Part shown: in pieces, positions 1 through 14,244 of the stretch | Layout of the letters: every line of letters starts with the position of its first letter | Numbering within the stretch: the first letter of the stretch is position 1 | Translations under genes and position numbers: made by a program | DNA from: Rhodanobacter panaciterrae | Lineage (GTDB): Bacteria > Pseudomonadota > Gammaproteobacteria > Xanthomonadales > Rhodanobacteraceae | Reading direction: 5' to 3' | NCBI RefSeq assembly: GCF_014651895.1 | Contig: NZ_BMXT01000001.1 | Span: forward strand, 310,001-374,000 | Length of the DNA stretch: 64,000 nt | The notes under the pieces: model-generated | What the model saw: the letters and a program-made list of their open reading frames with translations, nothing else | Told to the model about the DNA's origin: nothing | The model's database searches: none

Positions 1-786
1 CGCATGGCGGGAACCTCGTTCCGCGTCGTCGGCGTGCTGGACAGCTGGCAGCCGAACCCGCACTTCTACGATCTGAATACGGGCTCCTACGCGTATGGCG
101 AGCAGGTGTTCCTGCCGTTGCAGACCATGCTGGAACTGCGGCTGGATCGCAACGGATCGACCGATTGCTGGGGCAATGGCGGTGGCGGCGTCGGCAGCAT
201 CCTGCCTTCGGATAGCTGCGTATGGCTGCAGTTCTGGGCGCAGTTGGACAGTCCCGCGAAAGCAGCCGCATACAAGGAATTTCTGGTGCACTACTCACAG
301 GACCAGAAGGCGCTGGGCCGATTCGAGCGCGCGCCCAACGTACGCCTGCGCAACGTGATGCAGTGGCTGGACTACCAGATGGTGGTACCCGACGACGTGC
401 GCCTGCAGAACGGGCTGGCGTTCGGCTTCCTGCTGGTGTGCCTGGTCAACACGGTGGGGTTGATGCTGGCCAAGTTCATGCGCCGCGCGGGCGAGCTCGG
501 TGTGCGCCGCGCGCTGGGTGCGTCGCGGCGCGCGCTGTTCGCGCAGTTGCTGATCGAATCCGGCGTGGTCGGTCTGGTCGGTGGTTTCGGTGGCTTGCTG
601 CTGGCGCTGTTCGGGCTGTGGCTGGTGCGGCAGCGGCCTTCGGCCTATGCCGCGCTGGCCCATCTGGACTTGAGCATGCTGTTCACCACCTTCGTGCTGG
701 CGGTGTGCGCCACCCTGCTGGCCGGCCTGCTGCCCGCCTGGCGCGCTTGCCAGATCGCGCCGACGCTGCAACTGAAGAGCAACTGA
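1..786 (+). CDS. FtsX/MacB-type ABC permease, class A, 5' end outside window
   Basis: C-terminal part of a class A member of the permease array; the frame is open to the left edge, so the start lies upstream. The visible 260 residues hold the end of the periplasmic MacB core domain and three membrane segments (about residues 138-158, 182-208 and 222-246 from the first visible Met), the FtsX layout. The motif VRRALGASR after the first segment is the cytoplasmic coupling region seen in MacB/FtsX permeases. The C-terminus LLPAWRACQIAPTLQLK is shared by the class A genes at 2052 and 4699 and, more loosely, 7370. The next gene starts 7 bp downstream, so they are co-transcribed. The substrate is unknown; peptide, antibiotic or lipoprotein export is the family norm. 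Confidence 0.9.
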   Translation, partial: RMAGTSFRVVGVLDSWQPNPHFYDLNTGSYAYGEQVFLPLQTMLELRLDRNGSTDCWGNGGGGVGSILPSDSCVWLQFWAQLDSPAKAAAYKEFLVHYSQDQKALGRFERAPNVRLRNVMQWLDYQMVVPDDVRLQNGLAFGFLLVCLVNTVGLMLAKFMRRAGELGVRRALGASRRALFAQLLIESGVVGLVGGFGGLLLALFGLWLVRQRPSAYAALAHLDLSMLFTTFVLAVCATLLAGLLPAWRACQIAPTLQLKSN

Positions 787-793
787 GGTGAGC

Positions 794-2026
794 ATGGACA
801 TTCTTCCGATCCTTTCCACGCTGCGCCGGCACAAGCTCACGTCATGGCTGCTGATCCTGGAAATCGCGCTGACCTGCGCCATCGTCTGCAATGCGGTGTT
901 CCTGATCGGCCAGCGTCTGCAGCGCATGGACATGCCCAGTGGCGTAGCCGAACACGAGCTGCTGCAGATTCAGGTCGCCGACGTGACGGCACCATCCAAT
1001 CCGTATGCCCGCCTCGCGGAGGATGTGGCGCTGCTCAGGCAAGTGCCGCGAGTGATCTCGGTGGCTTCCTCCAACCAGGTGCCGTTCGGCAGCTCGTCCT
1101 CGAACGGCAACATCCGGCTCGACCCGGCGCAGCCCGAGCGCACGCTCTTCGCCACCACCTACTTCGGCGAAAACCTGGTGCCGACACTGGGCACGCGGCT
1201 GGTCTCCGGGCGCGACCTGCAGCCCGATGACTTTGTCGACGTGGAGACGGCGCTGAAAGCGCTCGGCACTGGCGAAAGCAAGAGCCTGCCGCATGTGACC
1301 CTGATCACCCAGACCCTTGCCGAACGCCTGTGGCCGGGACAGAACCCACTGGGCCGCATCATCTACCTCACGCCCGTCGTGGGCCTGCGCGTGGTCGGTG
1401 TGCTCGACAGCCTGGCGCGGCCGAATGCCTACGACACGGCCAAGGCGCAATACACCATGGTGGTGCCGATACGCATGGGAGCGAACAAGGATCAGAGCTA
1501 TCTGATCCGCACCCGGCCAGAAGATCGTGCGAGCGTGCTGACCGCCGCACTCGCCGCATTGAAGAAGGCCGACCCGCAGCGAGTGGTGACCACCAAACGC
1601 AGCTTCGACGAAGTGCGCCGGAAGTTTTTCCAGGATGATCGTGCGATGGCGGGCATGCTGGTTGGCGTGATTGTGGCATTGCTGATCGTCACCGCGCTGG
1701 GCATCGTCGGCCTGGCCAGCTTCTGGGTGGCGCAGCGCCGCCGTACGATCGGTGTGCGCCGTGCACTCGGTGCTACGCGCGGCAACATCCTGCATTACTT
1801 CCAGACCGAGAACTTCCTGCTCGCCACGATCGGCATCGCGCTTGGCATGGTGCTGGCCTACGGCATCAACCTGTTCCTGATGCTGCACTACGAATTGCCA
1901 AGACTTCCAGCCGTCTATTTCCCGATCGGCGCGGTCGTGCTGTGGCTGATCGGGCAAGTGGCCGTGCTGGGTCCTGCACTGCGCGCAGCGGCGGTGCCGC
2001 CGGTAGTAGCCACGAGGAGCGTGTGA
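794..2026 (+). CDS. FtsX/MacB-type ABC permease, class B
   Basis: 410 aa. One N-terminal membrane segment (about 14-40, with the class B signature LEIALTCAIVCNAVF), a large periplasmic core, then three C-terminal segments after about residue 285. The coupling motif IGVRRALGATRGNILHYFQTENF and the tail PPVVATRSV recur in all class B genes here. ATG 794 is chosen over GTG 788 because GAGG lies 5 nt before it. It probably pairs with the preceding class A permease as a heterodimer (inference). No ATPase domain is present, so an external ATPase is needed. Confidence 0.92.
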   Translation: MDILPILSTLRRHKLTSWLLILEIALTCAIVCNAVFLIGQRLQRMDMPSGVAEHELLQIQVADVTAPSNPYARLAEDVALLRQVPRVISVASSNQVPFGSSSSNGNIRLDPAQPERTLFATTYFGENLVPTLGTRLVSGRDLQPDDFVDVETALKALGTGESKSLPHVTLITQTLAERLWPGQNPLGRIIYLTPVVGLRVVGVLDSLARPNAYDTAKAQYTMVVPIRMGANKDQSYLIRTRPEDRASVLTAALAALKKADPQRVVTTKRSFDEVRRKFFQDDRAMAGMLVGVIVALLIVTALGIVGLASFWVAQRRRTIGVRRALGATRGNILHYFQTENFLLATIGIALGMVLAYGINLFLMLHYELPRLPAVYFPIGAVVLWLIGQVAVLGPALRAAAVPPVVATRSV

Positions 2027-2051
2027 TGCAGCCGGCAAGGGACGCGTGAGC

Positions 2052-3353
2052 ATGTTCGCCTATTACCTCGACCTTGCCCTGCGCAGTCTGAAGCAGAACC
2101 GTGTGCTTACCGCCCTGATGGTGCTGGCGATGGGGCTCGGTATCGGCGCCAGCATGACGACGTTGACGGTGTTTCATCTGCTGTCCGGTGATCCATTGCC
2201 GGGCCGCAGCGGGCAGCTGTTCTACCCGCAGGTCGATCCGACGCCGACGGCGGCTCCGGCTTTGCCCGGAAACATGAACTACATCGATGCGGTGAACCTG
2301 TGGCAGGCCAGGCGCGCCGACCGGCAGGCGATCATGGTCGGCGGCAACGTCAAGACGAAGGCGGCGCAGGCCGGTTCGAGGCCGATGAGCCTGCACACAC
2401 TGGCGACCACGGCGGACTTCTTCCCGATGTTCGGCGTCCGCTTCACCCAGGGCAATGCGTGGACAGCGGCCGACGACTTGGCCAAGGCCAGGGTCGCGGT
2501 GATTTCGCGCAGCGCCAGCGACCGGCTCTTTCACGGCGAAGGCGGCCTTGGCCAGAGCATCCGGTTGGGACAGTGGAATTTCCGCGTGATCGGCGTGATC
2601 GACGATTGGCGACCCACGCCGCATTTCTACGAACTCGATCGCGAGAGCTATGGCGATGGCGACGAGGTGTTCATCCCGTTCCTGACTTCGCGTGATCTGG
2701 CCGAGCTCGGGATCACCGGCTACAGCCTCAACTGCTACGGCAACACCATGGATGATCTGCATCTCGAAAACCAGCCGTGCCTGTGGCTGAATTTTTGGGT
2801 CGAGCTGGACAGTCCCGCCAAGGCGCAGGCATACCGCCAGTTTCTCGACAACTATGCGCGCGAGCAGCAGGCGCTTGGACGCTATGTCCAGGCCGGATCG
2901 CCGCGCACTGCGTTGCCCAGCGTGATGCAGTGGCTCGACCAGAACGGTGTGGTACCCAGCGATGTCAGCCTGAAGAGCTGGATCGCACTCGGGTTCCTGC
3001 TGGTGTGCCTGATGAACACGACCGGTCTGCTGCTGGTCAAATTCCTGCGCCGCACCACCGAGATCAGCGTGCGCCGTGCCCTGGGCGCCTCGCGCCAACA
3101 GATCTTCCTGCAGTGCCTGGTGGAGGCAGTCATCGTGGGCATGGCTGGCGGCGTGCTGGGGCTCTTGCTGGCACTGGCCGGGTTATGGGGCATCCGTCAT
3201 ACGCCAGCGGATTACGCCGACCTCGCGCATCTCGATCTGCCGATGTTTGCGGCGACGTTTGCGATTTCGCTTGTCGTGAGTCTTGTCGCCGGACTGTTGC
3301 CGGCATGGCGCGCCTGCCACATCGCCCCAGCGCTTCAACTCAAGGTGATCTGA
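2052..3353 (+). CDS. FtsX/MacB-type ABC permease, class A
   Basis: 433 aa, full length. It starts FAYYLDLALRSLKQNRVLTA, the class A signature, with a membrane segment at about 18-40. The MacB-like periplasmic core spans about 45-300 and three C-terminal segments follow. The coupling motif reads ISVRRALGASRQQIF. ATG 2052 is preferred to GTG 2046 because the AAGGGA ribosome site is spaced better for it. It follows the previous gene by 25 bp and precedes its class B partner by 9 bp, so it forms the second A-B pair. Confidence 0.92.
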   Translation: MFAYYLDLALRSLKQNRVLTALMVLAMGLGIGASMTTLTVFHLLSGDPLPGRSGQLFYPQVDPTPTAAPALPGNMNYIDAVNLWQARRADRQAIMVGGNVKTKAAQAGSRPMSLHTLATTADFFPMFGVRFTQGNAWTAADDLAKARVAVISRSASDRLFHGEGGLGQSIRLGQWNFRVIGVIDDWRPTPHFYELDRESYGDGDEVFIPFLTSRDLAELGITGYSLNCYGNTMDDLHLENQPCLWLNFWVELDSPAKAQAYRQFLDNYAREQQALGRYVQAGSPRTALPSVMQWLDQNGVVPSDVSLKSWIALGFLLVCLMNTTGLLLVKFLRRTTEISVRRALGASRQQIFLQCLVEAVIVGMAGGVLGLLLALAGLWGIRHTPADYADLAHLDLPMFAATFAISLVVSLVAGLLPAWRACHIAPALQLKVI

Positions 3354-3362
3354 GGCCTACGC

Positions 3363-4571
3363 ATGCAGATACGACACGTCCTCGCCGCGTTGCCTCGCCA
3401 CAAGCTGGTCTGCCTGCTGGTGGTGTTCGAGATTGCGGTGGCCTTCGCGATCCTGTGCAACGCTGTGTTCATCATCAACCAGCGCGTGCAGCAGATGCGC
3501 ATCGACACCGGCATCACCGAAGATCGGCTGATCTTCGTTCGCACCGATGGTGTCGGCGCCGACGCCAACGCGCCGCTGATCACGCGGAACCTGCTCGCGC
3601 TGCGGGGTCTGGCAGGGGTGAAATCGGCGGTGGCGATGTTCGGTCTGCCGCTGGAAAACATGTCGATCAACTTCAAGCCGTGGCTGACCGCGGACATGAA
3701 AATCCGCGCGCCGAGCGTCGGCATGGTCGCGGGTACGCCCGGCTATCTGGATACGCTGGGTCTGACGGTCGTGCAGGGGCGTGGTTTCACCGACGCGGAT
3801 TACGACGGCGTGGATCAGACGTCCAAACCGCTGTCGCCGGTGGTGATCGTGCCGCGCGAACTCGCCGAACGATTGTGGCCGGGGCAGAACCCGATCGGGC
3901 AGAAGATCTGGCGTAGCCCTACCCGAAGCTACACCGTGATCGGTGTGGTACAGCGAATGGTGCGCGGCTACCTGCGCGAGGATTTCGTGCCCGGCTATAC
4001 GGCGTTGTTCGCGATAAAGCCGGTGGCAGCGTACTCGGGGTTGTATGTGATGCGGGTCGATCCGCAGGATCGCGAACGGTTGGTGCGCGAATCCGCCGAG
4101 CTGCTGATGCGCCTCGATCCCGACATGTTGATCAATGCCAAGGGTAGCTACGCCGACGCGCGCGCCGATTATTTTCGACAGGACGCCTCGCTGGCGTGGC
4201 TGCTGCTGGCGGTGTGCGTGGCGATGCTGCTGGTGACGGCGATGGGCATCGCCGGGCTGGCCAATTTCTGGGTGCAGCAGCGACGTCGTCAGATCGGTAT
4301 CAGGCGTGCGCTAGGCGCCACCCGTCGCGACATCCTGCATTACTTCCAGACCGAGAATTTCCTGATCGTCAGCGGCGGCATTGTGCTGGGCGTGTTGCTG
4401 ACGTTCGCGTTGAACCTGTTGCTGACGATGCACTACGAACTGCCACGGCTGCCGATCGTCTATCTGCCGGTCGGTGCACTCGCACTGTGGCTGATCGGGC
4501 AGGCGGCGGTGTTGGGGCCGGCACTGCGTGCGTCCGCGGTGCCACCGGTGGTGGCGACGCGCAGCGTGTGA
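3363..4571 (+). CDS. FtsX/MacB-type ABC permease, class B
   Basis: 402 aa. Class B signatures are present: N-terminal membrane segment with VFEIAVAFAILCNAVF, coupling motif IGIRRALGATRRDILHYFQTENF, tail PPVVATRSV. Second B gene of the array. It is followed not by the next gene directly but by a 127-bp spacer carrying the first double palindrome. Function is as for the other members: membrane subunit of an ABC exporter or mechanotransmission complex, substrate unknown. Confidence 0.92.
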   Translation: MQIRHVLAALPRHKLVCLLVVFEIAVAFAILCNAVFIINQRVQQMRIDTGITEDRLIFVRTDGVGADANAPLITRNLLALRGLAGVKSAVAMFGLPLENMSINFKPWLTADMKIRAPSVGMVAGTPGYLDTLGLTVVQGRGFTDADYDGVDQTSKPLSPVVIVPRELAERLWPGQNPIGQKIWRSPTRSYTVIGVVQRMVRGYLREDFVPGYTALFAIKPVAAYSGLYVMRVDPQDRERLVRESAELLMRLDPDMLINAKGSYADARADYFRQDASLAWLLLAVCVAMLLVTAMGIAGLANFWVQQRRRQIGIRRALGATRRDILHYFQTENFLIVSGGIVLGVLLTFALNLLLTMHYELPRLPIVYLPVGALALWLIGQAAVLGPALRASAVPPVVATRSV

Positions 4572-4580
4572 GCTTTTACT

Positions 4581-4676
4581 CCCTCCCCTGCTTTGCAGGG
4601 GAGGGCTGGGGAGGGGTGCTTTTGGTTCGCCGGAGAGCACCCCCTCCCAACCTCCCCCTGCGATCGCAGGGGGAGG
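4581..4676. repeat. REP/BIME-type double palindrome, copy 1
   Basis: Two palindromes face each other. The left has 11-bp perfect arms (CCCTCCCCTGC, loop TTT, 4581-4605). The right is a perfect 26-bp palindrome centred on TCGCAGG at 4651-4676. Inner GGTGCT/AGCACC segments could also pair. It lies between the second B and third A permease genes. The same architecture recurs at 7251, 2,670 bp away. REP-type elements of this CCCTCCCC…GGGGAGGG kind are common intergenic repeats in Proteobacteria. Confidence 0.85.
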
Positions 4677-4698
4677 AGACAACCATGGAGCACGTGGA

Positions 4699-6003
4699 AT
4701 GTTTGCCTACTACATCGAACTGGCGTTGCGCAGCCTGAAGCGCAACCGGGTGCTCACAGCGTTGATGGTGATGGCGCTGGCGCTCGGCATCGGCGCGACG
4801 ATCACCACGCTGACCGTGCTGCGGCTGCTGTCCGGCGATCCGCTGCCGCAGAAAAGCACGCAGCTGTTCTACCCGCAGATCGATCCGAATGCGAAGGAGG
4901 GCTACATCGAGGGGCAGACCAAGCCCGACTCGATCATGACCTATGTCGACGCGATGAATCTGCTGCAGGCCCATCGCGGCACGCACCAGGCGGCAATGGC
5001 GTTGACCCAGGCCAAGGTGATCCCGAAACAGGCCAACGCGCGCCCGTTCTTCAGCGATGCGGTGATGACCACGGCGGATTTTTTCGCGATGTTCGATGCG
5101 CCGTTCCAGTACGGTGGCGGCTGGACCGCGGCGGATGACGACGGCCGCGCGCAGCTGGTGGTGATCGCCGGCTTTCTCAACGACAAGCTGTTCGCCGGCG
5201 CCAACAGTGTGGGCCGGGTGATCCGCGTCAACGATCACGACATGCGCATCGTCGGCGTGCTGAAACCGTGGGCGCCGCAGCCGCGCTTTTACGCACAGGA
5301 TCTCGGTGGGCGCAGCTACGGCGACGGCGAAGCGGTGTTCCTGCCGCTGCAGACGGCGCGTGCGATGGAGATGGGGCCACAGGACATCGAGTGCTATGCC
5401 GCGGTTCCCGACGTCAAGCACATCGAGACGGCGCCGTGCGAGTGGCTGGGCGTCTGGGTCGAGCTCAACAGCGACGAGGCGGTGGCGGGCTACAAGACCT
5501 TCCTCGACGGCTATGTGAAGCAGCAGGTGGCGCTGGGTCGGTTCCAGCGCACCGAGACTTCGCTGCTGGATCTGATGGGCTGGCTGCGCCAGGAGCAGGT
5601 GGTACCTGACGACGTGCGGCTGCAGGCCGGCCTCGCGTTCGGCTTCCTGCTGATCTGCGTGGTCAATACGGTCGGCTTGTTGCTGGCCAAGTGTCTGCGC
5701 CGCTCGGGGGAGATCGGTGTGCGACGTGCGCTAGGTGCGACCCGGCGCGAGATCTTTACCCAGTTCATGGTCGAGGCCGGCATCGTCGGTCTGGCCGGCG
5801 GCGTGCTGGGTTTGCTGTTTGCCGAACTGGGGCTGCTCGGCATCCGCCATCAGCCGGCGCAGTACGCCAGCCTCGCGCATCTCGATCTCGAGATGTTCCT
5901 GTTCACCTTTGTCGTGGCCCTGGTTGCCAGCCTGATCGCCGGCATCTTGCCAGCCTGGCGCGCCTGCGTGCTGGCACCGGCCCCTCAACTCAAAGCTGCC
6001 TGA
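4699..6003 (+). CDS. FtsX/MacB-type ABC permease, class A
   Basis: 434 aa. It starts at FAYYIELALRSLKRNRVLTA. The open frame runs further upstream through the palindromic repeat, but homology with the sister genes and a GGAG site 8 nt before ATG 4699 fix this start. N-terminal segment at about 18-40, MacB-like periplasmic core, coupling motif IGVRRALGATRREIF, tail LPAWRACVLAPAPQLK. Third A gene; the stop is 7 bp before the next class B gene. Confidence 0.92.
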   Translation: MFAYYIELALRSLKRNRVLTALMVMALALGIGATITTLTVLRLLSGDPLPQKSTQLFYPQIDPNAKEGYIEGQTKPDSIMTYVDAMNLLQAHRGTHQAAMALTQAKVIPKQANARPFFSDAVMTTADFFAMFDAPFQYGGGWTAADDDGRAQLVVIAGFLNDKLFAGANSVGRVIRVNDHDMRIVGVLKPWAPQPRFYAQDLGGRSYGDGEAVFLPLQTARAMEMGPQDIECYAAVPDVKHIETAPCEWLGVWVELNSDEAVAGYKTFLDGYVKQQVALGRFQRTETSLLDLMGWLRQEQVVPDDVRLQAGLAFGFLLICVVNTVGLLLAKCLRRSGEIGVRRALGATRREIFTQFMVEAGIVGLAGGVLGLLFAELGLLGIRHQPAQYASLAHLDLEMFLFTFVVALVASLIAGILPAWRACVLAPAPQLKAA

Positions 6004-6010
6004 GGTCATC

Positions 6011-7240
6011 ATGGAAATCCGTCCGATTTTTGCCAGCCTGCGCAAGCACCGCATTCCGGCCCTGCTGATCGTGCTGGAGATCGCACTGGCCTGCGCGGTG
6101 CTGTGCAATGCCGTGTTCATGATCAGTCAGCGGGTGAACGACATCCGCTTGCCCAGCGCGATCGACGAGCAGGGTCTGGTCACGGTCACCCTGCGCGGCA
6201 CTGACGACAAACTGGTCGGCAGCGAGATTCCACGCAATCTGGCCGCGCTGCGTGGCATCGCCGGGGTGCAGCAGGTAGCCATCACCAGCAGCCTGCCGCT
6301 CAGTACCAACAATTGGGGCTGGAGCTTCGGCGTGAACGCCGATTCGGTCATCGCCAACCAGAAGAACATCAACGTGTCGTTGTATTTCATCGGCGAGAGC
6401 GGTGACAAGGCGCTCGGTCTGCACATGCTGCAGGGACGCTTCTTCAACGCGGACGAACTGGCCGACAGCAAGTTCGATACCGCGCCGCTGCCGGAGACGC
6501 ATGCGGTCGTGATGACTCACGCCGCGGCAGAAAATTTCTGGCCCGGGCAGTCGGCACTGGGCAAGACGATCTATTCCAAGCCGTATTACTACACGGTGGT
6601 CGGCGTGGTCGAAGATGTGCTGCGACCCAACATCTCTACGACGAACACGCGCAAGTCGTACGACGCCGTGTACTTCCCGATGAGCGCTGCCGGCAGCAAG
6701 GGTGCGTTGAGCTACTACATCCTGCGCGGTGCGCCGCAGGACCGCGACCGCATCATGCGCGAAGCCGAGCAGAAGCTGGCCGAGCTCAATCCCGGCGCGG
6801 TCGCCAAGGGTCAGATCTACGTGGACATCCGCGAGAAATATTTCGCGAACATGAGCAGCATGGCGTGGATGCTGGTGCTGGTATGCGTGGTGATGCTGGC
6901 GGTGACCGCGTTCGGCATCGTCGGCCTGACCAGTTTCTGGGTCGGTCAGCGGCGTCGGCAGATCGGCATCCGCCGCGCGGTGGGTGCCACGCGCCGCCAC
7001 ATCATGCAGTACTTCCAGACCGAGAACCTGTTGCTGACCACGGCCGGCGTAGTCGTCGGCATGGGGCTGGCTTTCGGCATCAACGTCTATCTGATGCAGC
7101 ACTACGAAATGTCGCGCATGCCCTGGTACTACCTGCCGGGCGGCGCGCTGGCGCTGTGGCTGCTGGGTCAGGCGTCGGTATTCGGGCCGGCGCAGAAAGC
7201 GGCCTCCGTGCCACCGGTGGTGGCGACGAGGTCGGTGTGA
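6011..7240 (+). CDS. FtsX/MacB-type ABC permease, class B
   Basis: 409 aa. GAGG lies 5 nt before the ATG and overlaps the stop of the previous gene. Class B signatures: LEIALACAVLCNAVF in the first membrane segment, IGIRRAVGATRRHIMQYFQTENL in the coupling region, tail PPVVATRSV. The periplasmic domain differs more from its sisters than the membrane parts do, as expected if the core domains carry specificity (inference). It is followed by the second palindrome pair. Confidence 0.92.
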   Translation: MEIRPIFASLRKHRIPALLIVLEIALACAVLCNAVFMISQRVNDIRLPSAIDEQGLVTVTLRGTDDKLVGSEIPRNLAALRGIAGVQQVAITSSLPLSTNNWGWSFGVNADSVIANQKNINVSLYFIGESGDKALGLHMLQGRFFNADELADSKFDTAPLPETHAVVMTHAAAENFWPGQSALGKTIYSKPYYYTVVGVVEDVLRPNISTTNTRKSYDAVYFPMSAAGSKGALSYYILRGAPQDRDRIMREAEQKLAELNPGAVAKGQIYVDIREKYFANMSSMAWMLVLVCVVMLAVTAFGIVGLTSFWVGQRRRQIGIRRAVGATRRHIMQYFQTENLLLTTAGVVVGMGLAFGINVYLMQHYEMSRMPWYYLPGGALALWLLGQASVFGPAQKAASVPPVVATRSV

Positions 7241-7250
7241 TGTTTTTGCT

Positions 7251-7348
7251 CCCTCCCCTGCGTTGCAGGGGAGGGCCGGGGTGGGGTGCTCTTGCCGTGA
7301 CGGAAGAGCTACCCCCTCCCGACCTCCCCCTGCGTTGCAGGGGGAGGG
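7251..7348. repeat. REP/BIME-type double palindrome, copy 2
   Basis: Same design as the element at 4581: left arms CCCTCCCCTGC with loop GTT (7251-7275), right arms CCTCCCCCTGC with loop GTT (7323-7347). After it, both copies share a short leader containing CCATGGAG just before the next class A start codon, so the duplicated block includes the ribosome-binding region of the following gene. Confidence 0.85.
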
Positions 7349-7369
7349 AACAGCCATGGAGTAGGACGA

Positions 7370-8692
7370 ATGTTCGGTTATTACCTTGATCTGGCTTTCC
7401 GCAGCCTCAAGCGCAACAAGGTGCTCACCGCGCTGATGGTGATCGCGATCGCCGTCGGTATCGGTGCAAGCATGACCACGCTGACGGTGATGCGGCTGTT
7501 GTCGGGCGATCCGATCCCGGCTCGTAGCGCCCACCTGTTCTATGCGCAGATCGATCCGGATCCGACCCCGGGAGATCGGAAGGAGCCGTATGACGTGATC
7601 GATTACCAGTCGGCGGTTGACCTGTGGAGCGCGCATCGCGCCGATCGCCAGACCCTGATCATCGAAAGCCCGGTGCGCATGCGCGCACCCGACGTCAACC
7701 TGCCGGCGATGATGCCGGCGATGGCGTCGATCACGGCGGATTTCTTTTCGATGTTCGACGTGCCGTTCCAGTACGGCAACGGCTGGACCGCGGAGGACGA
7801 CACCAAGCGCGCCCAGGTCGCGGTGATTTCGGCGGATCTCAACCAGAAACTGTTTGGCGGCGCCAACAGCGTTGGCCGCACCCTGCGCCTGCGCGATACC
7901 GATGTACGCATCATCGGCGTGCTCAAACCGTGGCGACCATCGCCGTTGTTCTACATGGTGGCCGGTGCCCACTACGCCAACGGCGACACCGCCGATCTCT
8001 ACAGCAAGACGGAGGACATATTCACGCCGTTCTTCACCGGGCTCGAACTCAACGACGGCAATTTCAGCCAGTACACCTGCTGGCATCTGCCCGACCATCC
8101 CGGCCACCTGCGGAATTCGCCCTGCGTGTGGGTGCGTCTCTGGGTGCAGCTGGGCGACAGCAGCAAGGTGGTCGCATACAAACAGTTCTTGGACGGCTAC
8201 GCGGCCCAGCAGAAAGTGCTCGGCCGTATCGTACGCCCGCAGAACACGCGCCTGCGCAGCCTGATGCAATGGCTCGACTATGAAGGCGTGGTGCCCAGCG
8301 ATGTACGCCTGCAGACCTGGCTGGCATTTGCGTTCCTGGCGATCTGCCTGTTCAACACCATCGGTCTGCTGCTGGCGAAATTCCTGCGGCGCGGCGGCGA
8401 AATCGGCGTGCGGCGGGCTTTGGGTGCGACGCGGGGCGCGGTGTTCGCGCAATGCCTGGTGGAAGCAGGCATGGTCGGGTTGATCGGCGGCATCGTCGGC
8501 TGGCTGCTGACCCTGGCGGGACTGTGGTTGGTGCGCCAGCAGTCGGTGCCGTACGCCGACCTCGCGCACCTGGATGCGTCGATGTTCCTGCTCACATTCG
8601 CGCTCGCCATCGCCGCCAGCTTGCTGGCCGGCGTGCTGCCGGCGCTGCGCGCCAGCCGGTTGCCGCTCGGCCTGCAGTTGAAGACCTTGTAA
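7370..8692 (+). CDS. FtsX/MacB-type ABC permease, class A
   Basis: 440 aa, the longest class A member. Starts FGYYLDLAFRSLKRNKVLTA with a GGAG site 10 nt upstream. One N-terminal and three C-terminal membrane segments flank a MacB-like periplasmic core with an extra stretch at about 200-225. Coupling motif IGVRRALGATRGAVF. The tail LPALRASRLPLGLQLK departs slightly from the WRAC form of its sisters. Fourth A gene, 11 bp before its class B partner. Confidence 0.92.
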   Translation: MFGYYLDLAFRSLKRNKVLTALMVIAIAVGIGASMTTLTVMRLLSGDPIPARSAHLFYAQIDPDPTPGDRKEPYDVIDYQSAVDLWSAHRADRQTLIIESPVRMRAPDVNLPAMMPAMASITADFFSMFDVPFQYGNGWTAEDDTKRAQVAVISADLNQKLFGGANSVGRTLRLRDTDVRIIGVLKPWRPSPLFYMVAGAHYANGDTADLYSKTEDIFTPFFTGLELNDGNFSQYTCWHLPDHPGHLRNSPCVWVRLWVQLGDSSKVVAYKQFLDGYAAQQKVLGRIVRPQNTRLRSLMQWLDYEGVVPSDVRLQTWLAFAFLAICLFNTIGLLLAKFLRRGGEIGVRRALGATRGAVFAQCLVEAGMVGLIGGIVGWLLTLAGLWLVRQQSVPYADLAHLDASMFLLTFALAIAASLLAGVLPALRASRLPLGLQLKTL

Positions 8693-8703
8693 GGAGCCTG
8701 TCG

Positions 8704-9918
8704 ATGCAAATTCAACCCATACTCGCAGCGTTGCGTCGTCATCGGCTGGCCACCTTGCTGATCGCGCTGGAGATCGCGCTGGCCTGCGCCGTGCTGTGCA
8801 ATGCCTGCTTCCTGATCGCCAACCGCATTGCCCTGATCCATCTCGACAGCGGCGTGGATCAATCCTCGTTGGCGACGGTGCAGTTGACTGGCTACGAGGA
8901 CAATCAGGCGAACGATCTCAATGCACGCGTGCTGGCCGGCTTCCGCGGCATCGCGGGCATGCAGTCGGTCAGCGTGCTCAATTCCATTCCCTTCGGCGCA
9001 CGGCGCGGCACGGCGGGGATGACGCTGGATCAGGCCGGGCAGAAGTTCGGTGGCGTGGTGGAGTTCTATGTCGGCGGTCCGGGCAGCTTGGAGGCGCTGG
9101 GCGTGAAACTGGTCGCGGGTCGCGGCCCGCAAATGGACGACTTCCAGGCTTTCACCGGACTGATGCCCAACAATGCATCGGTGCAGATCACCCGCACGCT
9201 GGCCAATCATCTGTGGCCAGGCGCCGATCCTCTGGGCAAGACATTCTGGCTCGGCGACCTGCAGTACCGGGTGGTCGGCGTGATCGATCATCTGGTCAGG
9301 CCGGACCCCGGCCGCTGGCCCGGTGACAGCAAGGACTGGTCGATCTTCGTGCCGGCGCAGACGGGTGTTTTCCTTTCCGGCAGCTACCTGCTGCGCGCCG
9401 ATCCGAAAGATCTGCCGCGCGTGCTGCGCGAAGCGCGCGACTTGGTACGCAAGGTCGCTCCGGACGCCGTGCTCGATCAGGACGGCAGCAAGACCCTTGA
9501 CGACCTTCGCACCGAGGGTTTTCAGAAGGACCGCGCGATGATCGGCATGCTGGTCGGCGTGATCGTCTCGCTCCTGCTGGCGACCGCGCTGGGTATCGTC
9601 GGACTGGCCAGTTTCTGGGTGCAGCAGCGGCGCCGGCAGATCGGCATCCGTCGCGCCATCGGCGCCACACGTCGAGACATCTTGCACTACTTCCAGATCG
9701 AAAACTTCCTGATCGTCAGTGGCGGCATTGCGCTGGGCATGCTGCTGGCCTACGCGTTGAACCTGCTGTTGATGCAGCACTACGAATTGCCGCGCCTGCC
9801 GTTGTATTACCTGCCGATCGCAGCGCTGGTGCTGTGGGGGCTAGGCCAGCTTGCCGTGCTCGGCCCCGCGCTGCGCGCGGCGGCGGTGCCGCCGGTGGTG
9901 GCGACGAGGTCGGTATGA
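8704..9918 (+). CDS. FtsX/MacB-type ABC permease, class B
   Basis: 404 aa. The frame is open further upstream inside the previous gene, but the start MQIQPILAALRRHRLATLL matches the sister genes, and AAGGAG lies 8 nt before ATG 8704. Class B signatures: LEIALACAVLCNACF, IGIRRAIGATRRDILHYFQIENF, tail PPVVATRSV. Last gene of the eight-permease array. The sigma-54 regulator follows after 88 bp with no palindrome between, so it may be in the same transcript. Confidence 0.92.
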   Translation: MQIQPILAALRRHRLATLLIALEIALACAVLCNACFLIANRIALIHLDSGVDQSSLATVQLTGYEDNQANDLNARVLAGFRGIAGMQSVSVLNSIPFGARRGTAGMTLDQAGQKFGGVVEFYVGGPGSLEALGVKLVAGRGPQMDDFQAFTGLMPNNASVQITRTLANHLWPGADPLGKTFWLGDLQYRVVGVIDHLVRPDPGRWPGDSKDWSIFVPAQTGVFLSGSYLLRADPKDLPRVLREARDLVRKVAPDAVLDQDGSKTLDDLRTEGFQKDRAMIGMLVGVIVSLLLATALGIVGLASFWVQQRRRQIGIRRAIGATRRDILHYFQIENFLIVSGGIALGMLLAYALNLLLMQHYELPRLPLYYLPIAALVLWGLGQLAVLGPALRAAAVPPVVATRSV

Positions 9919-10006
9919 ATAGTGAGTTCTCAGGTATACGCGTGACGATAGTCATGGCAACCTTTGTGGTCCGAGCGGCATCCATGTCCGCATGTGCAGA
10001 AGAAAG

Positions 10007-11347
<1,341 letters not shown>

Positions 11348-11386
11348 GGCATAGGCATTGATCGATTTTTCGGGGATGCTGTGGCC

Positions 11387-12793
11387 ATGCGACCGCTGAT
11401 GACCCTCAAGCTGCGCCTGACCCTGCTGCTTGGCGTGGCGGCGCTGGCCGGTGCGCTGATCTATGCCGGTGTCACGCAGTGGCCACTGCCACAGCTGTTG
11501 TTGTGGCTGCAAACCGCGCTGACGGCAAAGCCGGCGACGGCGGCAGTGATCAAGGCGCAGCCCGAGCTTCATCTGGGCATCTACGGGGGCCTCGGCATCT
11601 GCGCCGTGCTGCTGTTGCTGCTGGCATTCTGGCTGGCCGGCCTCGGGATGGCGCCGGTGAGCCGCCTGCTGCGGGCGCTGGAAGGTGCGGTGGCGAGCTA
11701 CCGCGACGGCGATTTCAGTTTCTCGATCGCGATCAACCGGAGTGACGAGCTGGGCGAACTGATCCGCATGCACAATGCGCTGGGGCAGACCCTGCGCGAA
11801 CAACGCCAGCATCTGGTGCAACGCGAACTGCTGCTCGACACCGTGGTGCAGAACACGCCGGTGGCGCTGGTGCTGACCGATTCGATCGGCCGCGTCGCCT
11901 ACGCCAACATCGCTTCGCGGCATCTGTTCAACGAAGGCCGCAACCTGATCGGACTGGATTTTGCCGCGCTGCTGGCCGATGCGCCGGAAGCGTTGCGCAA
12001 GGCAGTGGAAAGTGGCGAGGATGCGCTGCTCAGCGTGGAGATGGACGGCAGCGAGGAAACCTTCCATCTGTCGCAGCGCGCGTTCCGCCTGCAGGGCCGG
12101 CCGCATCGGTTGCAGCTGTTCCGGCGCATGACGCGTGAATTGTCGCGGCAGGAAGTGGCGACCTGGAAGCGGGTGATCCGGGTGATCAGCCACGAACTCA
12201 ACAATTCGCTTGCGCCGATTTCCTCGCTGGCGCATTCCGGCGCCGAGCTGGCGCGGCGCGGCCAACTCGACCGCCTGCCCAATGTGTTTGCCACCATCAG
12301 CGAACGCGCAATGCACCTGCACGGCTTCATTGCCGGATATGCGAGCTTCGCCAAGTTGCCCACGCCGCAGCCGGTGGCGGTCGAATGGACGCGATTCCTC
12401 GAAGGCTTGGCACTGCATTGCCGTTACCGGCTGGCTGCACCGCCACCGGAACGCCCGGGCGTATTCGATGCCGTGCAGATCGAGCAGGTGTTGATCAACC
12501 TGATCAAGAACGCGCACGAATCGGGTAGCGTCGAAGATGAAGTCACGCTGACGATCCTGGAAGTCGGCAGCGAGCTGCGCATCGAGGTGGCCGATCGCGG
12601 CCCCGGCATGAGCGAGACCGTGCTGGCGCAGGCGTTGCTGCCGTTCTATTCGACCAAGCGCTCCGGCACCGGCCTCGGCCTGGCGCTGGCGCGGGAGATC
12701 ACCGAAGCCCACGGTGGCCGCGTATTGCTGGCCAATCGCGAAGGCGGCGGTTTGCGCGTGAGCCTGCGGCTGCCGCAGTCAGCACCGAGATAA
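11387..12793 (+). CDS. NtrY-like sensor histidine kinase
   Basis: 468 aa from ATG 11387 (GTG 11381 is an alternative). Two membrane segments (about 10-28 and 62-85) enclose a short periplasmic loop with few sensory features. Then come a HAMP-like linker, a PAS domain (about 145-225), the H-box [13 protein letters not shown] with H269, N-box [13 protein letters not shown]1 DRGPGM and G2 GTGLGLAL. The domain order fits NtrY/AtoS-type partners of NtrC regulators. It follows the regulator by 39 bp and is its likely cognate kinase. The signal sensed is unknown. Confidence 0.92.
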
Positions 12794-12839: not shown

Positions 12840-13787
12840 ATGATGGGACAGCTTCTCGCGTTGGTGATCGTGTTCGTCGTCGTGGTTGGCGTGGCCAAGC
12901 TGGTGCGCATCGTGCCGCAGGGTTTCGAATGGACGGTGGAGACGTTCGGCAAGTACACCCGCACGCTCAGCCCCGGTCTGCATTTCCTGATCCCGATCTA
13001 CCAAGCGGTCGGGCGCAAGATCAACATGATGGAGCAGGTGCTGGACGTGCCGTCGCAGGACGTGATCACCAAGGACAACGCGGTGGTGCGTGTCGATGGC
13101 GTGGTGTTCTACCAGGTGCTCGACGCTTCCAAGGCCGCTTACGAGGTGTCCAATCTTGAGCAAGCCTCACTGGCGCTGATCATGACCAATATCCGTACCG
13201 TGCTCGGCTCGATGGATCTGGATGAATCGCTGAGCCAGCGTGACGCGATCAACGCCAAGCTGCTGCGCGTGGTGGACGAGGCGACCCATCCATGGGGCGT
13301 CAAGGTCAACCGCATCGAGATCAAGGACATTGCGCCGCCGCGCGACCTGATCGACGCAATGGCCCGACAGATGAAGGCCGAGCGCGAGAAGCGCGCAAAC
13401 ATCCTCGATGCCGAGGGCTTCCGTCAGGCGGCGATCCTCAAGGCCGAAGGCGAGAAGCAGTCGGTGATCCTCGCTGCCGAGGGTGAGAAGGAAGCCGCGT
13501 TCCGCGCCGCCGAAGCGCGCGAGCGTTCGGCCGAGGCCGAGGCGAAGGCGACCACGATGGTCTCCGACGCGATCTCCGGCGGCAACGTCAACGCGCTGAA
13601 CTACTTCGTCGCCAACAACTACGTCGAGGCGCTGAAGGAAATGGCGAAGTCGCCGAACCAGAAGATGCTGCTGCTGCCGATCGAGGCCACCGGCATCTTG
13701 GGTTCGCTGGCGGGTATCGCCGAGCTGGCCAAGGAGTCGCTGGGTCAGCAGCAGAAGGCGGCGGCGATCCAGCCGCCGTTGCGCTGA
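12840..13787 (+). CDS. qmcA: SPFH/Band 7 membrane protein, QmcA-like
   Basis: 315 aa. An N-terminal membrane anchor (about 4-20) precedes a stomatin/prohibitin (SPFH) domain beginning [21 protein letters not shown] long Glu/Ala/Lys-rich helical region (about 180-240, [20 protein letters not shown]) is probably coiled coil and oligomerises. Family members organise membrane microdomains and can restrain FtsH-type proteolysis. GGAG lies upstream, and ATG 12843 is an alternative start. The nfeD gene follows 10 bp downstream, the usual stomatin-NfeD operon. Confidence 0.9.
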
Positions 13788-13797
13788 GGCCGCGGCC

Positions 13798-14244
13798 ATG
13801 TGGGATCTTTCCGTGCATTACCTGTGGTGGATTCTCGCGTTGTTGCTGATCGCCGGCGAGGTATTGCTGCCGGGTTATTTCATGCTGTGGATCGGTCTGG
13901 CCGCCGCCGCGATGGGTGTGGTGTTGTGGGCTGTGCCGACGCTGGGTCTGCTGACGCAGGCGGTGTTGTTCGCGCTGCTGGCGTTCGCATTCTGCGTCGG
14001 TTACGCGCGCTGGCTGCGACCGCGGCTGGAGCGCAGTGCGCCTGGTGACGAGCGCCTGAACCGGCGTGGCGAACAGATGATCGGCCAGCGTTACGTGCTG
14101 GTCGAGCCGATCGTCAACGGTCGCGGCAAGGCCCGCGTCGGTGACGGCCAGTGGCTGGTCAGCGGGCCGGATCTGCCGCTGGGCAGCACGGTGGAAGTGG
14201 TGGCCGTCGAAGGCACCACCTTGCAGGTGCGCGCGGCGGCATGA
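13798..14244 (+). CDS. NfeD family membrane protein, short form
   Basis: 148 aa. Three to four membrane segments in residues 8-75 (WWILALLLIAGEVLLPGYF…) and a C-terminal OB-fold of about 60 residues (GQRYVLVEPIVNGRGKARVGDGQW). This is the short NfeD1b type without a protease domain, partner of SPFH proteins. The stop overlaps the next start (ATGA). Confidence 0.9.
   Translation: MWDLSVHYLWWILALLLIAGEVLLPGYFMLWIGLAAAAMGVVLWAVPTLGLLTQAVLFALLAFAFCVGYARWLRPRLERSAPGDERLNRRGEQMIGQRYVLVEPIVNGRGKARVGDGQWLVSGPDLPLGSTVEVVAVEGTTLQVRAAA

Follow-up and report, generated by a model that had tools for sequence, protein, structure and literature searches.

A putative MacB-type exporter operon with one ATPase gene and six pairs of permease genes in Rhodanobacter panaciterrae

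Comparison with described systems

Several described transporters resemble an operon that lies across the edge of a stretch of Rhodanobacter panaciterrae DNA (contig NZ_BMXT01000001.1, positions 310,001-374,000; this whole stretch of 64,000 nucleotides is called the window here) and that encodes one ATPase and a series of paired FtsX/MacB-type permeases. In MacAB-TolC, a single protein carries the ATPase fused to the N terminus of the permease. LolCDE has two different permeases, present as one pair only, and a separate ATPase, LolD; to our knowledge it has neither an adaptor nor a channel. According to one review, LolC and LolE form a heterodimer, and MacB does not move its substrates across the inner membrane, its homologues pushing substrates outward through TolC-like ducts (PMC5985334). 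The darobactin exporter DarB-DarC-DarD has as its permease model a single chain of 777 positions (DarB), and the acidobacterial duplicated orphan permease family (ADOP, TIGR03434) is represented by one double permease of ~800 amino acids which, by the family name, is an orphan without a neighboring ATPase. Energy-coupling factor (ECF) importers use one ATPase for several membrane partners, as does mycobacterial MceG, but both are importers of other folds.

The initial annotation of the window had described eight adjacent permease genes alternating between two classes, A and B, in window 1-9918, and had placed a shared ATPase upstream of the window. Extension of the sequence upstream (extended locus L009; window position equals L009 coordinate minus 12000) confirmed the eight genes and revealed an ATPase gene upstream, and it enlarged the array, which starts 5.87 kb upstream of the window and comprises twelve permease genes in six A-B pairs, all twelve with open frames and encoding 402-441 residues. 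One HlyD/MacA-type adaptor gene, one ATPase gene and one TolC-type channel gene precede A1-B1 to A6-B6, and a sigma-54 response regulator and a histidine kinase follow (Table 1). Taking together the layout, pairing, counts, non-redundancy, promoter and predicted fold seen in the sequences, we read the operon, with a probability of about two in three, as a sigma-54-controlled MacB-type tripartite exporter in which a single motor, adaptor and channel are combined with a permease multiplied into a repertoire of A-B heterodimers.

Each of the four permeases submitted to domain searches contained FtsX, three also contained MacB_PCD, and none had an ATPase domain. The separate ATPase carries what we take to be the Walker A, signature and Walker B motifs; its best NCBIfam models were DarD, which ranked first, LolD, FtsE and MacB, and its eight best matches were all from Rhodanobacter (94-100% identity). 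AlphaFold2 models of A6 (pLDDT 89) and B6 (pLDDT 94), built from 60 sequences each, consist of long membrane helices around a periplasmic core. For both, the best Foldseek match was Acinetobacter MacB 5gko (A6, E 1.4e-21, TM-score 0.66; B6, E 1.2e-16, TM-score 0.69, on the query), with a pneumococcal MacAB-like permease matching B6 at an E-value equal to that of 5gko; LolCDE, HrtBA and YbbAP ranked lower, and BceB was among the distant matches. As in type VII (MacB/ABC3) permeases, the models have four predicted transmembrane helices, a large periplasmic domain after the first and a coupling helix between the second and third, and the accompanying gene encodes a predicted LolD/MacB-type ATPase.

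The operon thus shares with MacAB-TolC the predicted permease fold with these same elements, a MacA-type adaptor and a TolC-type channel, and by analogy with the MacB fold its transport may likewise be directed outward from the periplasm. It differs from MacAB-TolC in its separate ATPase gene and in having two permease classes, in six pairs per ATPase. It resembles LolCDE in its two different permeases and its separate LolD-like ATPase (LolD model, 218 bits), whereas the lolCE model reached only 19-29 bits in three of four permease genes and did not match the fourth (cut-off 362), and LolCDE has a single pair where six are present here. The ATPase and adaptor match DarD (258.7 bits) and DarC (77.5 bits), but both scores are below the curated cut-offs (375 and 450). 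Among the titles and abstract beginnings that we searched, a scope with preprints and most subscription papers outside it, we found no MacB-fold exporter with a common ATPase and no description of MacB-type arrays with one motor and many heterodimers. The parts and the fold are already known; what we regard as new is the proposed organization of one motor with many heterodimers in cassette-like, non-redundant arrays.

ADOP provides the link between the two permease classes. A genes matched positions 7-401 of TIGR03434 and B genes positions 411-801 (two of each scanned), each thus covering half of the model, and in a whole-genome search A4 and B4 were hit jointly as 7-801 with a single TGA between them. 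An A-B pair is therefore a split ADOP/YbbP-like double permease, with A as the N-terminal and B as the C-terminal half; unlike the double permease of the family, it is encoded by two genes, each below the family cut-off (165-183 bits per gene in the four scanned; cut-off 622 bits), and it has an ATPase, an adaptor and a channel in its operon. ADOP matches at E <= 1e-60 were present in 21 of 299 genomes of the phylum, and members above the cut-off in 3 of the 299; up to three candidates per genome were scored, which makes the copy numbers lower bounds. Among the 41 matches listed, 32 were single open frames of 802-891 residues, eight ran across a stop (that of the source genome included) and one was a 487-residue frame. 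The existence of fused homologues speaks, independently of the pairing data, for A and B acting as a single unit. At 15 fused loci chosen for reading, an ATPase match adjoined the permease in all 15, an adaptor in 13 (weak matches, 43-120 bits) and a regulator with a kinase in 12. Four of these loci had fused permeases in tandem with one ATPase, namely three in L183 (G257), two in L184 (G245), two in L185 (G350) and five in L194 (G329), which suggests that multiplication of the permease alone happened more than once.

Pairing of A and B and the number of ATPases

Among the six pairs of the array, A genes are 41-59% identical to each other and B genes 36-49%, while A and B share only 14-23%. 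We analyzed the order of the two classes in 124 stretches, 44 from the genome set (source genome included) and 80 further loci, of which 120 had permease matches; some genomes are represented twice. Neighbors less than 900 bp apart were A-to-B in 325 cases and B-to-A in 230, with no A-A and two B-B cases (L013 and G043). The alternation is not a product of chance. A total of 322 complete pairs were extracted, and 305 were retained after removal of 17 identical ones. The patristic distances of A correlated with those of the partner B with r = 0.871; shuffling the partners within genomes 200 times gave a mean of 0.143 and never more than 0.251. This correlation and the fused homologues uphold the idea of the initial annotation that the A-B pair is the unit.

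The same annotation had considered that each pair might have its own ATPase gene elsewhere, or that A and B might not co-vary in other genomes. Profile searches for A, B and the ATPase in one set of 59 genomes of the family pointed the other way on both counts: no ATPase per pair was found, and the numbers of A and B were equal in 58 of the 59 genomes, the exception being G043 with 5 A and 6 B. The candidates scored per genome numbered up to 29 for A, 31 for B and 47 for the ATPase, and counts may be low where there are many. The totals were 294 A, 295 B and 58 ATPases of the subfamily, with 0-15 A and B per genome, so that membrane partners outnumber the ATPases; 39 genomes had at least three A genes, two had two, 16 had one and two had none. 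An ATPase at least 72% identical to that of the operon was present in all 57 pair-bearing genomes, as exactly one copy in 56 and as two in G012, and the subfamily was absent from both genomes without pairs. A stop flagged inside the ATPase match of G047 had raised the possibility of decay, which we rejected as the gene frame is open. A second ATPase group had 52-58% identity, and in G040, the single case examined, it came from another operon with large permeases. That second operon, of the same kind, lies directly 3′ of a five-pair array (G040:C26, L119/L120) and encodes an adaptor, a 54%-identical ATPase, two permeases of more than 800 residues, a regulator and a kinase; two weak B-like matches at the end of the G040 stretch are part of another operon.

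These counts bear on the question of whether the motor is common at all, since orphan or distal pairs could use other ATPases, of the LolD, FtsE or YbbA types, or none. A first look gave 40-103 ATPase candidates per genome, and the source genome itself has pairs outside the array: at E <= 1e-70 we found nine A and nine B genes, corresponding to the six array pairs, two orphan pairs that are 90-91% identical to each other, and a third orphan pair. No ATPase match above 60 bits was found in the 15.0 and 14.0 kb surrounding the two near-identical orphan pairs, which would fit this alternative. Against it, the ATPase subfamily tracks the pairs in the manner described above, and the coupling motif, which loose patterns detected in 285 of the A and 297 of the B sequences (305 each), is present in all eight source-genome pairs of the set, in array and orphan pairs alike. 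Moreover, an ATPase match adjoins each of the other three MacB_PCD loci in the source genome. We therefore consider separate motors an improbable explanation and retain the reading of a single motor.

The operon layout was assessed in 44 stretches of the genome set, the 80 further loci and nine additional stretches. Where the flanks were visible it was adaptor-ATPase-(channel)-[A-B]n-regulator-kinase, with the regulator and kinase genes 3′ of the last pair; a channel gene was not found in many of the relatives' operons among these annotated loci. Single pairs were seen at the loci from Solimonas, Roseateles and Massilia and in most of the Lysobacter relatives, and Luteibacter L031 had two pairs. 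Most loci from Rhodanobacter, Dyella and Frateuria that no contig end interrupts had at least three, and G054 and G041 reached 11. On the L027 contig the array is mirrored around the ATPase as an inverted copy, which may be an artefact of assembly. Luteimonas huabeiensis and three Stenotrophomonas loci (L062, L071, L078 and L083) also have at least three pairs; one of these pairs is nested within a Rhodanobacter/Dyella type, which suggests transfer. An SPFH/band-7 gene and a small membrane-protein gene are located 3′ of the operon (window 12840-14244). Of eight relatives read beyond the kinase, five have an SPFH-like gene start after it, as judged by eye (G003, G010, G017, G047 and G054), with 6, 2, 1, 1 and 11 pairs, respectively. 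As this gene follows the kinase despite the differing numbers of pairs, array length probably varies at one genomic place.

Promoter, regulation and possible substrates

A -24/-12 site, TGGCACGCGGATTGCA (L009:2495), precedes the adaptor start by 57 bp; on the plus strand of the operon locus, no other site with one mismatch or fewer occurs across 26 kb. Sigma-54-type sites 5′ of the adaptor gene were found in 99 of 102 loci with up to two mismatches (2.48 expected), in 87 with up to one (0.11 expected) and in 47 without mismatch (0.00 expected); the expectation was taken from the rest of the same loci, and some of the 102 are near-identical. As in sigma-54 regulons, the operon combines an upstream -24/-12 promoter with a gene for NtrC-type activator domains, and its own regulator probably acts on this site. 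Only three near-sites with up to one mismatch occurred inside 900 kb of arrays. Because such sites are so rare there, all pairs are probably transcribed from the one promoter, and would thus be made together.

Joint production would also suit one large complex in which different A-B pairs surround one adaptor ring. However, the 16 genomes with one A and one B indicate that a single pair is enough for a complete operon, and loci that share the same gene downstream differ in their number of pairs, which lies between 1 and 11. We consider a mixed complex the most improbable of the alternatives. In the single-motor exporter that we favor, any single pair would bind two copies of the common ATPase through its conserved coupling helices, and ATP-driven motion of the periplasmic domains of that pair would push a pair-specific substrate out of the periplasm, through the common adaptor and a TolC channel. 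The terminal response regulator would switch on the whole operon from the one sigma-54 promoter 5′ of the adaptor gene.

The regulator and kinase that follow the last pair wherever this is visible could alternatively indicate that the pairs act mainly as flux or ligand sensors of the terminal kinase, as in BceAB-BceS, with only some of them exporting. In 46 of 56 kinases the loop between the first two predicted spans is short (2-48 residues, median 15); the other 10 have fewer than two predicted spans. The distant structural match to BceB agrees with this as well. Two points speak against it. The operon contains a HlyD/MacA-type adaptor and a TolC-type gene, and we know of no Bce system with an adaptor or a TolC-type channel; in addition, a single kinase would need to read as many as 11 different pairs. 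A sensor repertoire is thus unlikely, if less so than the other alternatives considered here.

With export as the preferred reading, neighboring genes offer leads to substrates. Among 21 stretches in which permeases and regulator were both visible, 10 had a DUF885 gene and 4 an S33-like hydrolase gene in the interval from the last pair to the regulator, with one stretch having both. Examples of such genes are L102:8819-10651, L098:8930-10732 and L124:5920-7128, with N termini that look signal-like by eye. DUF885 is a Pfam entry without assigned function. The R. panaciterrae operon has neither a DUF885 nor an S33-like gene, and the two DUF885 genes of the genome are elsewhere. The presence of these genes in relatives and the closeness of the ATPase to DarD weakly suggest peptide-like candidate substrates.

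Types and divergence of the pairs

We grouped the pairs into types by clustering at an average distance of 1.0, a threshold of our own choice. The 33 arrays of at least three pairs in the genome set contained 184 pairs of 31 types, and same-type repeats within arrays numbered 6, whereas 34.6 would be expected and the lowest of 2000 shuffles gave 23. Arrays of this size are thus almost free of redundancy. Pair order agreed in 401 of 429 comparisons (0.935, compared to a mean of 0.728 and a maximum of 0.783 in 500 shuffles). For 300 of the 305 pairs the nearest relative was in another stretch and, in the genome set only, for 189 of 194 it was in another genome; two of the five pairs with a same-genome nearest relative are the orphan twins. 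The tandem duplication put forward in the initial annotation does not agree with this pattern if it is taken to be recent. Nor does a dosage effect, in which the pairs would be redundant copies of one exporter: the tandem arrangement behind one promoter would suit it, but types are seldom repeated, identities within the array are only 36-59%, and the closest relatives are outside the genome. We regard dosage as very improbable.

In a tree of joined A and B alignments, 17 of the 20 commonest types were exact clades; types D, K and R also contain smaller types, and support was at least 0.88 except for H (0.0). The D clade contains type T of Stenotrophomonas and Luteimonas, and one Thermomonas pair falls within type B. 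These placements in the tree suggest transfer between families.

We give even odds to a broader proposal, in which up to fifteen heterodimers per genome would be exchangeable cassettes drawn from a pool of roughly thirty or more types and served by a common ATPase, adaptor and channel, fused ADOP "orphans" would be one-gene cassettes with a common ATPase, and the set of a strain would be its defence or export repertoire. ECF importers likewise have a common energizing module. If the ATPase is common, a MacB-type pump could extend its substrate range through the addition of a permease pair alone, and the paired periplasmic domains would form a natural series for reading the rules of substrate choice. 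It would also explain the "orphan" double permeases without ATPase, which number 28-33 copies in some genomes; one paper reports 28 and 33 copies under the ADOP name for two Dyadobacter genomes (PMC11573002).

Several observations weigh against a common motor serving distinct heterodimers. That one ATPase serves all pairs is something we infer from the sequences, and the same type of reasoning underlies the presumed assembly of heterodimers and the presumed substrate specificity of each pair. Co-evolution of A with its partner B can arise from linkage alone. In a direct-coupling analysis (effective depth 68), zone agreement between A and B was 0.50 compared to 0.45 expected; 329 inter-protein couplings exceeded the threshold with true partners, while shuffling within types left 105 and both of the shuffles within genomes left 28, an excess that relatedness can explain. 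At matched regulator divergence (20 array and 41 single-pair loci), the ATPase was less diverged in array genomes in two bins (0.088 vs 0.143; 0.129 vs 0.189), whereas in the closest bin (0.081 vs 0.088) array genomes were not more conserved. The adaptor (0.301 vs 0.339; 0.326 vs 0.440) and the kinase (0.324 vs 0.342; 0.344 vs 0.372) shifted in the same way in the former two bins. ATPase conservation may therefore reflect a lineage effect, and is weak support at best for a common motor.

The initial annotation had proposed that the pairs diversified mainly in the periplasmic core. The core is indeed the most diverged part, but this is also the case among single-pair orthologues. Since types are defined by total distance, comparing core and membrane parts by type is circular; the effect was much smaller when single-pair orthologues served as the reference. 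With membrane-part divergence matched (820 ortholog and 557 paralog comparisons, which are not independent), the excess of core divergence in array paralogues was 0.03-0.05 for A below 0.40 membrane divergence and -0.01 to 0.01 above it, and 0.02-0.06 for B in every bin. The excess is small.

Table 1. Coordinates of the operon components and of the third orphan pair.
Feature	Coordinates	Strand	Remarks
HlyD/MacA-type adaptor	L009:2552-3826		HlyD_D23/RND_mfp
ATPase	L009:3995-4717		ABC_tran, 240 aa
TolC-type channel	L009:4714-6069		type_I_sec_TolC
A1 permease	L009:6132-7445		
B1 permease	L009:7456-8694		
A2 permease	L009:8830-10155		
B2 permease	L009:10166-11419		
A3 permease	L009:11479-12786; window 1..786 (3′ part)	+	Start 521 bp before window; MacB_PCD and FtsX; ADOP profile 7-401
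B3 permease	window 788..2026	+	FtsX; ADOP profile 411-801
A4 permease	window 2046..3353	+	ADOP match joint with B4
B4 permease	window 3363..4571	+	ADOP match joint with A4
Spacer, pairs 4/5	window 4572..4698		G/C-rich palindromic repeat
A5 permease	window 4699..6003	+	
B5 permease	window 6011..7240	+	
Spacer, pairs 5/6	window 7241..7369		Same palindromic repeat as spacer 4/5
A6 permease	window 7370..8692	+	Predicted structure, pLDDT 89
B6 permease	window 8704..9918	+	ATG start chosen; predicted structure, pLDDT 94
NtrC-type response regulator	window 9992..11347	+	Receiver, sigma-54 activator, Fis helix-turn-helix
Sensor histidine kinase	window 11381..12793	+	HAMP, HATPase; 48-residue loop between two predicted membrane spans
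Third orphan pair	C2:84455-86985		A and B profile search; 4.5 kb read around it

The spacing of 4-30 bp given in the initial annotation fits roughly within units, where A and B are 1-11 bp apart (with the ATG at 8704 as the B6 start); between units, the gaps in the window are 19, 127 and 129 bp. Four of the five pair-to-pair spacers, and the gap between adaptor and ATPase, contain a G/C-rich palindromic repeat, whole or in part (window 4572-4698 and 7241-7369; L009 3826-3995, 8694-8830 and 11419-11479), and the gaps within pairs are too short to hold it. When up to 3 mismatches are allowed, the entire 3.46 Mb genome has 13 copies of the strict palindrome, of which two lie in the array. The repeat might aid the gain or loss of pairs.

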